64,000 nucleotides of DNA, taken from Verrucomicrobiia bacterium (lineage in GTDB: Bacteria > Verrucomicrobiota > Verrucomicrobiia > Palsa-1439). The stretch lies in the NCBI GenBank assembly GCA_022072455.1, contig JAJVHY010000004.1:426295-490294 (forward strand). The letters run 5' to 3'. Made by a program: the position numbers and the translations under genes. Shown piece after piece: positions 54,283 through 61,161 of this stretch; the stretch's first letter is position 1, and the number at the start of each line of letters is the position of its first letter. The notes beneath the pieces were generated by a model. It was not told the origin of the DNA. It worked only from the letters and a program-made list of their open reading frames with translations, and did not search any database.

Positions 54283-54586
54283 AATCACTTCCAATTAGCA
54301 GGGGATATGCCGCCGCGACCTGCGGCGGTCAGGCGCTGCAGAATCAGCGGAATCTGTTCAAAAATGACCGGTCCACACTCCGATGCGCAACACTGCCAAC
54401 GCCGCGACTGATGCCTCGGCCGGTCCGCTCGCTTGGGCATGCACTGCCCTCGTTACGGTGATTGCATCCGCACTACACCGACATGGGATTCTTCCAACTC
54501 ATCCCGGTCGCCATGATCGCCTCCAACACCGTCAGTCCTCCACCATCTCACGCCGGTCACGGCAACACCGGAATATGTATTTTACA
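54283..54586. other. Intergenic region upstream of pilT
   Basis: About 300 bp with no convincing gene. It contains a GC-rich stem CCGCCGC-N5-GCGGCGG (54310-54328), which would fold 28-46 nt before the pilT ATG in the mRNA leader. Short frames on both strands lack family similarity. Confidence 0.5.
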
Positions 54587-54611
54587 GTTTACAGAGTTGA
54601 CCCCGTTGACC
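54587..54611 (+). repeat. Left copy (L) of 25-bp inverted repeat bounding the sialidase-like gene
   Basis: The 25-bp sequence beginning GTTTACAGAGTTGACCCC matches the reverse complement of 55798-55822 at 23 of 25 positions. It lies 11 bp beyond the stop codon of the sialidase-like gene. A diverged third copy (R) is at 57165-57180. Confidence 0.85.
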
Positions 54612-54622
54612 AATTTCCCATT

Positions 54623-55795
54623 TCAAACCAACGGGAATTCACGGCCATCCGCCGCAATCATCCGGTTAGGGCGCTTCCAGTATACTTTGGTCAACCAGAT
54701 ATCGCCATTGCGAGCCTGACCATCGCGCGGCCATTCGGCCACGGTTATATAGCTCTCGAAAGGCGTGATAGGCCAGACCCAGAAATTCCCCATCGGCAAC
54801 GAACCCAGACCAGGGCTGACCGAGTGATCAGGAATAATAATCCGCTCAGTAGCACGGCAAAGCCGCAGTGTGCGTAAATCCACATCGGCACAGTGCAGCG
54901 GTGCGCGATGCCGCATGACATGGGCGTTGTCCTCGCGAATCCGGGTATAAACAAGCGCCAGACCATCACTGTGCGCCAGCAACTTGGTCATGGTCTGGTC
55001 CATCGCGATTGGCGAACCGTCATCCCAACACCATGGACGGGGAGGTTCCCAGAAACGCCCCCCATCCTCGCTCACCAAGATGTACCCGTGACCGTCTTCG
55101 GCCCGGGCCGTCATGAACAAGCGTCCCTGACACTGGGCAAGATGGGGTTCATAGAGTCCGCGGCGCGAAGCGACCGTATGATGATTGGAAATATGTTCGA
55201 GCAAGAAACGCGAACCATGCCGACGCGCAATCAGGGTCTGAACGTGGTAATGCCCACGGATAAAGCCATCTTTTCCGCAGGTGGCGACCGGCTCCGGTGA
55301 CGTCGTAAACGCCTGCACAATTGTATCGGGGTCTATTTCGAGGCTGGCCGTGGACCAGGTATGATACAGCGCCGAGGGAGGCGAAATAAGCGAGGGCGGC
55401 GCAGGCAGAAGATCGTTAGCATGCAGACCTTTACGTTGCCAGACAGAGTGATCGGGGCGGCCATTTGGTTCCCTTGGTTCCTGCAAGGGGGTGAGCGTCT
55501 CGAACAGATCATCCGTTTGATAATAGTGCCAGAGCGAATGTTTGTCGCGCCCGTAACGATCCGTACTCACAGCACGCAGCTCGATGCGCGGGGGATTCCC
55601 CGGCCGACTGGTCAGTAGTTCCGGGTGAACCCAGAGATCCTCGTGCGCTTGACCGGGAACAATGATCACACTTTCGAAGCGATCCACGATCGACTCGGGG
55701 GCGGCGGTAATTTGTAGCCGGGAAAGAGCATTGGCCCTCAAGCCCATGATCGATTCGGACGGTTGACAATGCGATGTGGAGGGTATTTCGTTCAT
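54623..55795 (-). CDS. Sialidase/BNR-like protein inside an inverted-repeat pair
   Basis: 390 residues. One clear Asp-box VSEDGGRFW (S-x-D-x-G-x2-W) near residue 245 and motifs such as LYEPHLAQCQGRLFMTARAEDGHGYILVSEDGG and SIAMDQTMTKLLAHSDGLALVYTR suggest the six-bladed BNR propeller of sialidase-like proteins. No signal peptide is visible, so it may be cytosolic or the start may differ; the catalytic Tyr/Glu pair is not certain. ATG 55795 lies 2 bp inside repeat copy M and the stop is 11 bp inside copy L, so the gene fills the space between the repeats. The RAYT gene follows on the other strand. Codon and base use look less GC-biased than in neighbours. Confidence 0.65.
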   Translation of the reverse strand: MNEIPSTSHCQPSESIMGLRANALSRLQITAAPESIVDRFESVIIVPGQAHEDLWVHPELLTSRPGNPPRIELRAVSTDRYGRDKHSLWHYYQTDDLFETLTPLQEPREPNGRPDHSVWQRKGLHANDLLPAPPSLISPPSALYHTWSTASLEIDPDTIVQAFTTSPEPVATCGKDGFIRGHYHVQTLIARRHGSRFLLEHISNHHTVASRRGLYEPHLAQCQGRLFMTARAEDGHGYILVSEDGGRFWEPPRPWCWDDGSPIAMDQTMTKLLAHSDGLALVYTRIREDNAHVMRHRAPLHCADVDLRTLRLCRATERIIIPDHSVSPGLGSLPMGNFWVWPITPFESYITVAEWPRDGQARNGDIWLTKVYWKRPNRMIAADGREFPLV

Positions 55796-55797
55796 GG

Positions 55798-55822
55798 GGT
55801 CATTGGGGTCAACTCTGTAAAC
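55798..55822 (-). repeat. Right copy (M) of 25-bp inverted repeat
   Basis: Inverted relative to 54587-54611 with 23/25 identity. It starts 2 bp upstream of the sialidase-like ATG and lies 48 bp before the RAYT start. Between it and the RAYT is a small stem CCTTG-TTGT-CAAGG (55833-55846). GGGGTCA-type sequences of this kind are often found beside RAYT genes. Confidence 0.85.
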
Positions 55823-55870
55823 AATAAATTCTCCTTGTTGTCAAGGCGTTTTGCGGGGTAAAAGTACGAC

Positions 55871-56815
55871 ATGGCAAGACCGGTTCGAGTCGAATTCGAG
55901 GGCGCGGTTTATCACATCACCGCGCGTGGTAATGAGCGGCGCGCAATCTTCCGCGACAACAAGGATCGGGAGCGGTTTGTCGAGACGTTGGCGGAGATGG
56001 TGGAGAGGTTTTCGGTTCGGGTGCATGCGTATTGTTTGATGCCGAATCATTATCATTTGGTAGTGGGGACACCGTTGGGGAATCTGTCGCAGGCGGTTGG
56101 GTGGTTGCAGGTGACGTACACGGTGCGGTTCAATCGGCGCTGGCGGCGGAGCGGGCATTTGTTTCATGGGCGGTTTAAGGCGCAGTTGGTGGAGGCGGAC
56201 GAGTACGCGCAGTGGTTGGTGGAGTATGTGCACTTGAACCCGGTCCGGCCCCGGCGTAAGGGCGGGCCGGTCGCGCGGGAACGGGCGGCGGAGTTGGACG
56301 AATTTCCGTGGAGCAGTCACCGGGAGTATGCGGGCTTGCGGTCGGCACCGGGGTGGTTGTGCCTGGATTGGCAGCGGTATTGGGGCGCGAACGAGCGGGC
56401 AGCCGCGCAAGGGTACCGGCAGCGCGTGGCGAGTTTATTCGCGGCGGGAACGGTAGCGAGTCCGTGGGTGAACTTGCGGGGAGGATTGGTGTTGGGCGGA
56501 GAGGAATTATGGGCGAAGGCCGAACGATTGGTGGCGGGAAAACAAGGTCAGGATGAGGGACACTGGACCAAAGCCATCGAGCGCGAACAAGTGCGGATGC
56601 GGGTGGAGGACTTGGTGGCCGGCGAACCGGATGAGCGGATCAAATTGTGGCTGCTGGTGCGGTTGGCCGGAGAGCGGAACGCAGTCGTGGGACGCCGGTT
56701 TGGCTACCGGGATGGGGCGGGTGTGGCGTACGTGTTGCGGCGGGTCGAAGCCGAAGCGGCGCAAAATCCAGAGCTGGCGCAGAAATTGGCGCAATACAGA
56801 CATTCCGTAAACTGA
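55871..56815 (+). mobile_element. REP-associated tyrosine transposase (RAYT, Y1 family)
   Basis: 314-residue CDS. The Y1_Tnp/IS200-like core starts ARPVRVEFEGAVYHITARGNERRAIFRDNKDRERFVETL. The metal-binding HUH motif is MPNHYHLVV, and the nucleophile Tyr is expected in DEYAQWLVEYVHLNPVRP. FPWSSHREYAGL is the conserved RAYT tail of the core, and a longer basic C-terminal region follows. RAYTs nick single-stranded DNA at REP-type hairpins and are normally single-copy domesticated transposases. Here repeat copies M (upstream) and R (57165-57180, inverted relative to M) flank the gene. Confidence 0.9.
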
Positions 56816-56822
56816 CCACCCC

Positions 56823-56951
56823 TCCGGCAGCTTCACTGTTGCACACCCGTCACCTGTTGGCTGTTTTGCGTGGTGACTCTGACCGAAAAAATCATGGCCC
56901 GCGCAGCCGGCAAAACCGCGGTCAACCCGGCGACAATGTCTGGGTCGAAGT
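56823..56951 (+). pseudogene. Broken duplicate of the leuC leader and first codons
   Basis: About 130 bp align at nearly 90% with 59754-59886, covering about 50 bp of leader and the first codons of leuC, including EKIMARAAGKTAV. One A is missing after codon 17, shifting the frame, and similarity stops shortly after. It begins 7 bp after the RAYT stop codon. Confidence 0.8.
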
Positions 56952-57164
56952 GGCCGGCATCTCTCCGACTCGGTTTACACCTGCGCAAATGCTTTCCGAA
57001 AGTCCCCCCCCATCAAGGGAACGACTATTTGAAAGTTAGCCGTGAAGTTGCCACAAGGGCCGTGTAACACGTCCAAAAATGACCAACCCACTCCGATATC
57101 ACCTCTTCGAACACCACGCATGATGGCTCGACGGTCGGAGCGACACCTGAACACGACCTTGACA
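56952..57164. other. Non-coding remnant DNA between leuC fragment and LPS kinase gene
   Basis: No supported gene. It contains a C-run (57003-57011) and leads into the third repeat copy. A 65-codon frame from 56870 is just the shifted leuC fragment with random extension. Confidence 0.5.
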
Positions 57165-57180
57165 GTTTACAAAGTGAACC
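57165..57180 (+). repeat. Diverged third copy (R) of the RAYT-linked repeat
   Basis: ACAGTTTACAAAGTGAACC (57162-57180) matches 54584-54602 at 16 of 19 positions in the same orientation, and so is inverted relative to copy M. It overlaps the stop codon of the LPS kinase-like gene. Confidence 0.5.
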
Positions 57181-57970
57181 GCACGGGCTGCGCATCGGGC
57201 CAGCGCTCGCGCATGTAGGCGGCGGTCTTGCGGGTGAGGGTTTTAGCTTCCTCGTCCAGCACGGTTTTACCGAGGTACCGTTTCACGAACGCGAGCCGTT
57301 CGCCCCGGCTGCAATATTGCAGCGCGGATTTGTCCAGCGACGCCAGATCGCGCCAGCGACGACGTTCTTTGCCAAACTGAACGAACGCGCCACGCGGACA
57401 GTCGATCCACCACAATTGCGGCGCGGCGGGCGCGTTCCATGTCACCAGAATGTTGCGCCAGACAAGGTCGTGATGAAAAAAACCGGCGGCATGGATCGTC
57501 CGCGTCATATCGGCGAGTTGCTCGCGGAGCGCAATGCGCAGTTCGCGGTGGGCTGACCGGGAGCGGTCAGGACAGTGAGTCGCAAGAAACTGGATCAACC
57601 CCAGCCCCTCGGGCACGGCGGTGGTGATGATGAAGGCGCAGCGCAACCGGCCGATCCGATCGCGTTCCTCACCACAAGCGACGGCGGCGGGCGTGCGAAT
57701 GCCTAGTTGCTGCAGCGCGGCGTAGTTCACGAATTCACAGCGCGCTTTGGAGCGGCGCCCGACGAAACTCCAGGCGGGAGTCGGATAATGGTACCGCTTG
57801 TAAAACACCGCGACGGCGCCACCGGTGCGCGGGCGGAGCGTTTGCGGTTTCACAATGACTTTCTCTTCATCCGGTAACGGCTCGCCGGCAAAGAACTGGG
57901 TCACGGCGGCCACCGACGTGAGACCTAATTCCTGAAACAGCGGTTGAAAAGCTGGCGCGATTTCAATCAT
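57167..57970 (-). CDS. LPS kinase-like protein (WaaP/InaA family)
   Basis: 267 residues from ATG 57970, which overlaps the stop of the acyltransferase gene (ATGA). The kinase-like fold shows VAVFYKRYHYPTPAWSFVGRRSKARCEFVNYAALQQLGIRTPAAVACGEE (nucleotide-binding region), the catalytic loop HAAGFFHHDLVWRNILVTW (H-x-D-x4-N) and WWIDCPRG (DFG-like Asp). WaaP-type kinases phosphorylate heptose or Kdo of the LPS core. Together with the LpxL-like gene it implies a Gram-negative outer membrane. Its stop codon overlaps the diverged repeat copy R. Confidence 0.85.
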   Translation of the reverse strand: MIEIAPAFQPLFQELGLTSVAAVTQFFAGEPLPDEEKVIVKPQTLRPRTGGAVAVFYKRYHYPTPAWSFVGRRSKARCEFVNYAALQQLGIRTPAAVACGEERDRIGRLRCAFIITTAVPEGLGLIQFLATHCPDRSRSAHRELRIALREQLADMTRTIHAAGFFHHDLVWRNILVTWNAPAAPQLWWIDCPRGAFVQFGKERRRWRDLASLDKSALQYCSRGERLAFVKRYLGKTVLDEEAKTLTRKTAAYMRERWPDAQPVRFTL

Positions 57971-59733: not shown

Positions 59734-59805
59734 GCGCAGGGATTGATCTGCGCCGCCGGCAACTTCACCGTTGCGCACCGGTCACCTGTTGGCTATTTTG
59801 CGGAC

Positions 59806-61161
59806 GTGACTCTTACTGAAAAAATCATGGCCCGCGCGGCCGGCAAAACTGCGGTCAAACCCGGCGACAATGTCTGGGTCAATGTGGACGTGTTGATGAC
59901 GCACGACGTCTGCGGGCCGGGCACAATCGGCGTGTTCAAACGCGAATTCGGCCAGGACGCCAAAGTCTGGGACAAAAATAAAATCGTCATCATCCCCGAC
60001 CACTACATTTTCACCGCTGACTCCAAGTCCAACCGGAACGTGGACATCCTGCGCGATTTCGTCCGCGAACAGGGCCTCAAGTATTTCTATGACGTCATTG
60101 ACGACCCGAACGGACACTGGGTTTTCGACGCCGCCAAAGGCCCGATGAAACGCCAGTACGGCGACAGCTTTGCCGGCGTTTGCCACACGGCGTTGGCCGC
60201 CAAAGGCCATACCCGACCCGGCGAGATACTCCTCGGGACCGACTCGCACACCTGCATGGCCGGCGCGTTCGGCGAATTCGCGACCGGCATTGGCAACACC
60301 GATGCCGGCTTCGTGCTCGGCACCGGCAAGCTCCTCTTGAAAGTACCGGAAACGATGCGCTTCCGGCTCGAAGGCAAAATGCAAAAAGGCGTGATGGCCA
60401 AAGACATCATCCTCCACGTCATCGGCGACATCGGGTTCGACGGCGCGACGTACCGGGCGATGCAGTTCGACGGCCCCGGCGCGAGCTCCTTGAACATGGA
60501 CGACCGGATGACCATCGCCAACATGGCCATCGAGGCCGGGGGCAAAAACGGCATCTTCGAGCCTGATCAAACAACCTTCGACTACGTCAACGAACGCACC
60601 AAGTTCAACGGCACCAAAACCGCCTACGACCCGATTTTCTGCGACAAAGATCAGCGGTTTTTCTACGACAAAACTTTCGATCTCACGAAACTCGAACCGA
60701 CCGTCGCCTGCCACCCGAATCCCGGCGTGCGCAAGCTGGCCAAGGAACTCGGCAACATCGCGCTCGACCGCGCCTACATCGGCTCGTGCACCGGCGGCAA
60801 ATCCAGTGATTTCTTCGCCTTCGCGCAGATCGTCAAAGGCAAGAAGGTGAAGATCGACACGTTCGGCGTCCCGGCCACGCCCGAAGTCATCGCCGACCTC
60901 CGCGCCGCCAACGTCTGGCAAGTCCTCGTGGATGCCGGCGTCCAGATGTCTGAGAATCCCGGCTGCGCCGCCTGTCTCGGCGGACCGGCCGACACGTTTG
61001 GTCGCATGAACAAACCGATGAAATGCATCTCGGCCACGAACCGGAATTTTCCCGGCCGCATGGGACATCTCGAATCGCAGGTGTTCCTTGCCAGCCCCTA
61101 CACCGTCGCCGCCAGCGCGCTCACCGGTAAGATTACCGATCCGCGCGAATACTTGAGTTGA
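59806..61161 (+). CDS. leuC: 3-isopropylmalate dehydratase large subunit
   Basis: 451 residues from GTG 59806 (VTLTEKIMARAAGKTAVKPGD; ATG 59827 would cut conserved residues). It belongs to the aconitase superfamily: LLGTDSHTCMAGAFGEFATGIGNTD, YIGSCTGGKSSDF and NPGCAACLGG supply the three Cys of the 4Fe-4S cluster. It isomerises 2- and 3-isopropylmalate in leucine synthesis together with LeuD, which is not in the window. The length fits the LeuC/homoaconitase type, so homoaconitase is an alternative. A broken copy of its leader and first codons lies at 56823-56951. Confidence 0.9.
   Translation: MTLTEKIMARAAGKTAVKPGDNVWVNVDVLMTHDVCGPGTIGVFKREFGQDAKVWDKNKIVIIPDHYIFTADSKSNRNVDILRDFVREQGLKYFYDVIDDPNGHWVFDAAKGPMKRQYGDSFAGVCHTALAAKGHTRPGEILLGTDSHTCMAGAFGEFATGIGNTDAGFVLGTGKLLLKVPETMRFRLEGKMQKGVMAKDIILHVIGDIGFDGATYRAMQFDGPGASSLNMDDRMTIANMAIEAGGKNGIFEPDQTTFDYVNERTKFNGTKTAYDPIFCDKDQRFFYDKTFDLTKLEPTVACHPNPGVRKLAKELGNIALDRAYIGSCTGGKSSDFFAFAQIVKGKKVKIDTFGVPATPEVIADLRAANVWQVLVDAGVQMSENPGCAACLGGPADTFGRMNKPMKCISATNRNFPGRMGHLESQVFLASPYTVAASALTGKITDPREYLS

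Follow-up and report, generated by a model that had tools for sequence, protein, structure and literature searches.

The part of the window described here (the window being the whole 64,000-nucleotide stretch that was analysed) carries an ORF of 390 aa that resembles sialidase/BNR-repeat proteins (54623..55795, reverse strand) and lies between the two arms of an inverted repeat, and directly beyond it a complete TIRtron unit of 1,018 bp (55805..56822, forward strand), a size matching the ~1.02 kb class of complete TIRtrons, which encodes a RAYT/TIRYT transposase of 314 aa (55871..56815, forward strand). A pattern search of the window located exact copies of GTTTACAGAGTTGACCCC at 54587-54604 (forward strand) and 55805-55822 (reverse strand) and no further copy at up to three mismatches, where 0.02 would be expected. 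Extending the comparison to arms at 54581-54611 and 55798-55828 gave 27/31 complementary positions (87% over 31 nt); the inverted repeat is real and chance is ruled out. An earlier, sequence-only reading of this DNA had reported inverted copies with 23/25 identity at 54587-54611 and 55798-55822, leaving 2 bp before the start codon and 11 bp after the stop codon of the ORF, with a RAYT beginning 48 bp outside the right copy, and all of these positions and distances were confirmed.

The same reading had assigned the neighbouring gene to the RAYTs, an assignment that held in profile searches, in which the protein matched Pfam Y1_Tnp (PF01797) above the cut-off (E=4.9e-14) and NCBIfam REP_Tyr_transpos with E=6.7e-19, the latter at 68.2 bits and so below its 80-bit cut-off. 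The translation contains an HUH motif, NHYH, and a Y motif, YVHLNP, which agree with the patterns NH[YF]H and Y[IV]HLNP of TnpA_REP subclass 2.1, a group reported to lack REP hairpins and probably corresponding to TIRYT (Quentin et al. 2018, PMC6006769). A C-terminal extension reaches ~190 aa past the core, and its last 138 aa are without a Pfam match at E<=1. Judged by its motifs, the transposase is a Y1/HUH enzyme of the TIRYT class, TnpA_REP subclass 2.1. TIRYT stands for TIR-associated tyrosine transposase, and a TIRtron is the unit made up of such a gene between its terminal inverted repeats. Published TIRYTs have TIRs of the GGGGWSAS type, which in some cases give rise to repeat families (Di Nocera et al. 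2013, PMC3733652; PMC6006769).

The flanks of RAYT homologues in this bacterial family follow a constant plan, with GGGGTCA and a variable stretch 5' of the transposase start and the inverse complement of the GGGGTCA end overlapping or just following the transposase stop. Each TIR is laid out as two 7-mers (e.g. TTTACAG, TGTCCAG, TTTCAAG or TGTCAAG) followed by AGTTGACCCC; the two ends within one unit are alike, and ends vary between units. In the window, the left TIR end of the TIRtron (55798..55828, reverse strand) has its tip at 55805, from which one outward stutter unit (AATGACCCC) enters the start of the sialidase-like ORF. The sequence of this end at 55805-55822 is GGGGTCAACTCTGTAAAC, and its tip, GGGGTCAA, fits GGGGWSA, the final S of GGGGWSAS being unmatched. 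The right TIR end (56797..56822, forward strand), which the earlier reading had not described, overlaps the transposase stop codon, as it does in homologues, and is degenerate here and intact in nine other RAYT-bearing units. The other arm of the inverted repeat is a lone TIR end at 54581..54604 (forward strand) with the pattern TTTACAG TTTACAG AGTTGACCCC, its CCCC tip pointing rightward, toward the sialidase-like gene; a left partner for it was sought and not found. The inverted repeat is thus the TIR of a TIRtron. We also considered the lone end as a piece of a longer conserved element and rejected this, since the genome repeats only its ~30 bp (about 24-31 bp recur) and no conserved body. 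Subterminal hairpins of the IS200/IS605 kind were absent, 0/9 ends folding significantly better than shuffled sequences.

The source genome was searched by pattern, as DNA and as protein. The GTTTACAGAGTTGACCCC-type end occurs in 10 places at up to two mismatches, and exact GAGTTGACCCC sites number 25 against 1 for the reversed control, so that this genome contains the TIRs as a dispersed repeat family; the earlier reading had proposed a genome-wide search for the end and had named uniqueness of the repeat as evidence against its cassette, and the repeat is not confined to this locus. In 11 genomes of the family, those with more RAYTs tended to have more ends (rho 0.87, with counts entered by hand). 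The only genome of the same genus (G001) has neither the ends nor the RAYT nor the sialidase-like gene, and offers no useful empty site.

End polarity, a property that the sequence-only reading had left out, was tallied over 21 neighbouring end pairs less than 2.6 kb apart in the retrieved family loci. All nine RAYT-containing pairs (span 968-1124 bp) have their GGGG tips pointing outward from the transposase gene, and all seven pairs with inward tips, the sialidase interval included, lack a RAYT inside. Both tips flanking the sialidase-like gene face the gene, opposite to the RAYT-bearing units, and because they do so the gene is bordered on each side by the outer tip of a separate element and is inside neither. 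Outward pairs of the same TIR type also occur as MITE-like units in the genome from which the window derives (contig C3, L218 4332-4484 and 5988-6139), each ~150 bp long with ~100 bp of non-coding DNA inside. The body of these units gave a single 15-nt match in the window, which we discounted (E=0.39), and the C3 locus had no informative orthologue from which an empty site could be read. Six further gene-sized inward intervals are present in the family, enclosing a 305 aa ORF on contig C14, a Pel9A-like gene and a sulfatase gene on C3, and, in relative G008, a 140 aa ORF (C108) and a 289 aa ORF (C137), the sixth lying on contig C31 of G010. Any gap between two intact outward elements necessarily has inward tips; the inward pattern alone is therefore no proof of cassettes. 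The polarity rule provides a simple check for a gene flanked by inverted repeats before it is described as a cassette.

As to the gene itself, the ORF scored E=0.045 against Pfam BNR_2, under the cut-off, and its translation contains a single Asp-box, SEDGGRFW. An AlphaFold model of the ORF (pLDDT 76) aligned in the PDB with propellers of the sialidase superfamily at ~10% identity and weak TM-scores of 0.3-0.5. The description sialidase/BNR-like given by the earlier reading therefore survives at the level of the predicted fold and not in the profile search, and identities and TM-scores this low are too weak to establish sialidase activity. The nearest full-length homologue (L202) is 39% identical, has a signal peptide by inspection and carries no ends of the TIR type beside it; the ORF in the window lacks a signal peptide, and nothing aligns to the ~23 N-terminal residues next to the end, so that the ORF may be 5'-truncated. 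A collection-wide scan with the gene returned a single relative, 39% identical and free of ends, and the only paralogue in the source genome (40%) has no TIR-type ends alongside. TIR-type ends were found beside none of the homologues, and the genome holds no second copy of the gene between ends.

These results bear on the proposal of the sequence-only reading that the gene and its two repeats form a non-autonomous unit moved by the neighbouring RAYT. Exact bounding of the gene, 23/25 identity between the ends and a RAYT only 48 bp away speak for such a unit, yet its ends face the wrong way when compared with every RAYT-bearing unit, no second copy or empty site was found, and homologues lack the ends, so that we regard it as very improbable. 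What stands of the proposal is the tie to the RAYT, the repeats being the transposase's own ends, recurrent in the genome and tracking RAYT number, whereas the placing of the gene inside those ends does not. Two observations that the reading had itself set against a cassette, the gene occurring without repeats and the repeats enclosing non-coding DNA, were both made at least in part, in the homologues elsewhere and in the ~100 bp interiors of the MITE-like units, respectively.

The surroundings of the gene pair differ between relatives. In G008, pilT (74% identical) and a leuC-like gene (81%) are divergent and 66 bp apart with no intervening block, whilst in the window they are separated by 5.5 kb, and since the two genes lie side by side in the relative this block represents an insert. 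From pilT onward it comprises the lone end, the sialidase-like gene, the TIRtron, a partial leuC copy, a kinase gene and genes for an acyltransferase-like and a methyltransferase-like protein (the last two assigned from reading the translations), followed by the intact leuC. The partial copy (56821-56956, forward strand; 138 nt), another feature missing from the earlier reading, comprises the upstream region and 5' end of leuC, is 88% identical to 59753-59890 and starts at the right end of the TIRtron, so that duplicated leuC stretches flank the kinase/acyltransferase/methyltransferase block. A degenerate TIR-like end (57160..57183, forward strand) adjoins the stop codon of the gene for the Kdo/WaaP-like kinase. 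The ~120 bp preceding this end resemble the ~260 bp that precede the lone end, with 0/150 shuffles reaching the score, which is suggestive of homology between the two stretches and gives the appearance of one version of the site stacked on another. In G008 the entire 5.5 kb is missing and not just the tip-to-tip interval, and a precise empty site for the sialidase-like gene was not found.

An insert of this kind invites the idea of a composite or inside-out unit, in which the transposase or its relatives would act on outer ends, namely a left end of the lone element and the right end of the TIRtron, and move the lone element, the sialidase-like gene and the TIRtron together as one 2.5 kb transposon. 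The occupation of the pilT-leuC gap relative to G008, the abutment of the right TIRtron tip on leuC-upstream sequence and the recurrence of inward-tip pairs around single genes would all fit, but no convincing left outer end was found between pilT and 54581 in the window at up to three mismatches, the right end (56822) is degenerate, and the genome contains neither a second copy, only the ~30 bp ends recurring, nor a paralogue with ends, that at 40% identity having none. We consider such a transposon unlikely.

The ends are not scattered evenly. GAGTTGACCCC sites form 8 neighbour pairs separated by 100-2500 bp where 0.30 would be expected, and after the two RAYT pairs were dropped and the array on contig C8 was counted once, 4 clustered pairs were left, a number reached in 0.015% of simulations. 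Given this clustering and the recurrent inward intervals, some process brings ends and accessory genes together, and accretion driven by recombination or by a transposase may be that process.

Many tips are also accompanied by short repeats. A tandem repeat of at least 9 nt lies outside the tip in 28% of 89 distinct family ends against 1% of random positions, and since the 89 include some chance matches within genes, the real proportion is if anything greater. A typical stutter consists of 2-3 copies of GACCCC plus 3 nt (e.g. L011 7334-7380, L142 4912-4945 and 55796-55808 in the window). Partial duplications also have tips at their edges, as seen for leuC, a HAD-like gene and Rhs fragments. 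In the array of Rhs-like fragments at L182 2513-7263 (contig C8) the duplicated cores each begin ~5 bp beyond a RAYT-type tip, and another tip is where a partial copy of the HAD-like gene ends. At L012 400-3420 (contig C22) two accessory ORFs each follow an apparent 3' fragment of a glutaminyl-tRNA synthetase gene, with a RAYT-type end ~55 bp past each ORF in the same orientation. One reading of stutters, partial gene copies and arrays of single genes between lone ends would be that accessory genes accrete at TIRYT ends, where processing of the tip repeatedly joins nearby or foreign DNA to it and leaves these traces behind; we hold this to be unlikely, and if true it would amount to a transposase-driven gene-collecting system distinct from integrons.

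Integron parts were also seen in the genome. The frame of an integron integrase at L014 6127-6795 (contig C35) meets a RAYT-type tip after about residue 195, and an integrase copy at the start of contig C3 (L228 1-549), 99.4% identical over a 176 bp overlap, reads on uninterrupted; strains may differ at this point, the gene may be present twice, or the assembly may be responsible. Hairpins resembling attC (GCTGGAGGC..GCCTCAGCTTGAGCG) occur at L013 121-183 and 2540-2590 (contig C30) and at L092 200-275, between small same-strand ORFs, in an integron-like array housing a TIRtron. On the 3' side of the sialidase-like gene no attC was found, the window having no match to the attC-like core of the genome at up to two mismatches, though a more divergent attC may be present.

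Identical lone ends or MITEs to either side of accessory genes could alternatively serve as portable homology, with genes swapped or stacked between strains at these islands by homologous recombination in an integron-like manner and without a dedicated recombinase. Direct MITE copies, 91% identical, on either side of the Pel9A-like gene and the further inward tip pair around the sulfatase gene are in line with such exchange, as are the Rhs fragments duplicated with a tip at the edge, the HAD-like fragment joined to a tip and, in the window, two diverged copies of the stretch that precedes the ends together with the duplicated leuC 5' end, as if alleles had been stacked. Ends of ~25-30 bp are, however, short for efficient homologous recombination, the two copies around the sialidase-like gene are inverted, which favours inversion over excision, and no exchange was observed at one genome per species; we think this improbable, slightly more so than the composite transposon.

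Most likely, then, the sialidase-like gene is no mobile cassette in its own right and has a neighbouring element on each side. We favour with reasonable confidence the explanation that it is neighbouring DNA within an accessory island between pilT and the leuC-like gene, and not cargo of this end pair. The presumed activity of the TIRYT is the nicking and joining of single-stranded DNA at [7-mer][7-mer]AGTTGACCCC TIRs. The window contains one TIRtron (55805-56822) and, 1.2 kb off, one lone end of the same type (54581-54604), probably the relic of a second, MITE-like element; the tight fit of the gene would result from insertion and recombination at gene borders in a region that was already variable. 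Against the neighbouring-DNA explanation stand the recurrence of single genes between inward tips, the clustering of tips, the 2 bp fit and the missing left partner of the lone end.

TIRYTs account for much of the Y1 transposase superfamily, and TIRtrons are known but little-studied small bacterial transposons. The genomes of this family supply a clean definition of the TIR, the size and polarity of the element, MITE-like copies and a candidate pair of interrupted and intact intI genes, which makes the mechanism testable.

Several known systems share features with this locus. As in integron cassettes, single accessory genes are separated by short recombination-related sequences, and the source genome has an integron integrase and attC-like hairpins at other loci; the window, however, has no attC-like core match, and the ends are RAYT TIRs in either orientation. 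REPINs and MITEs are thought to be mobilised by RAYTs (PMC3116915), and the ~150 bp non-coding units with two inverted transposase-type ends at the C3 locus (L218) resemble them, although here copies are few and the ends do not form single-strand hairpins, showing no significant fold. With TnpA_REP subclass 2.1 the transposase shares the NHYH and YVHLNP motifs and a long C-terminal extension, which in the subclass has DnaA_C/HTH similarity and here has no Pfam match. Like the described TIRtron, the element has a Y1 transposase gene between TIRs with a GGGGWSAS-type tip, and TIR copies are dispersed, single or grouped. Unlike it, the tip is GGGGTCAA, departing from GGGGWSAS at the last S, the ends follow a 7+7+10 pattern and often bear a tandem stutter beyond the tip, one of them, a lone end, faces a gene, and ends lie at the edges of accessory genes and of partial gene duplications.
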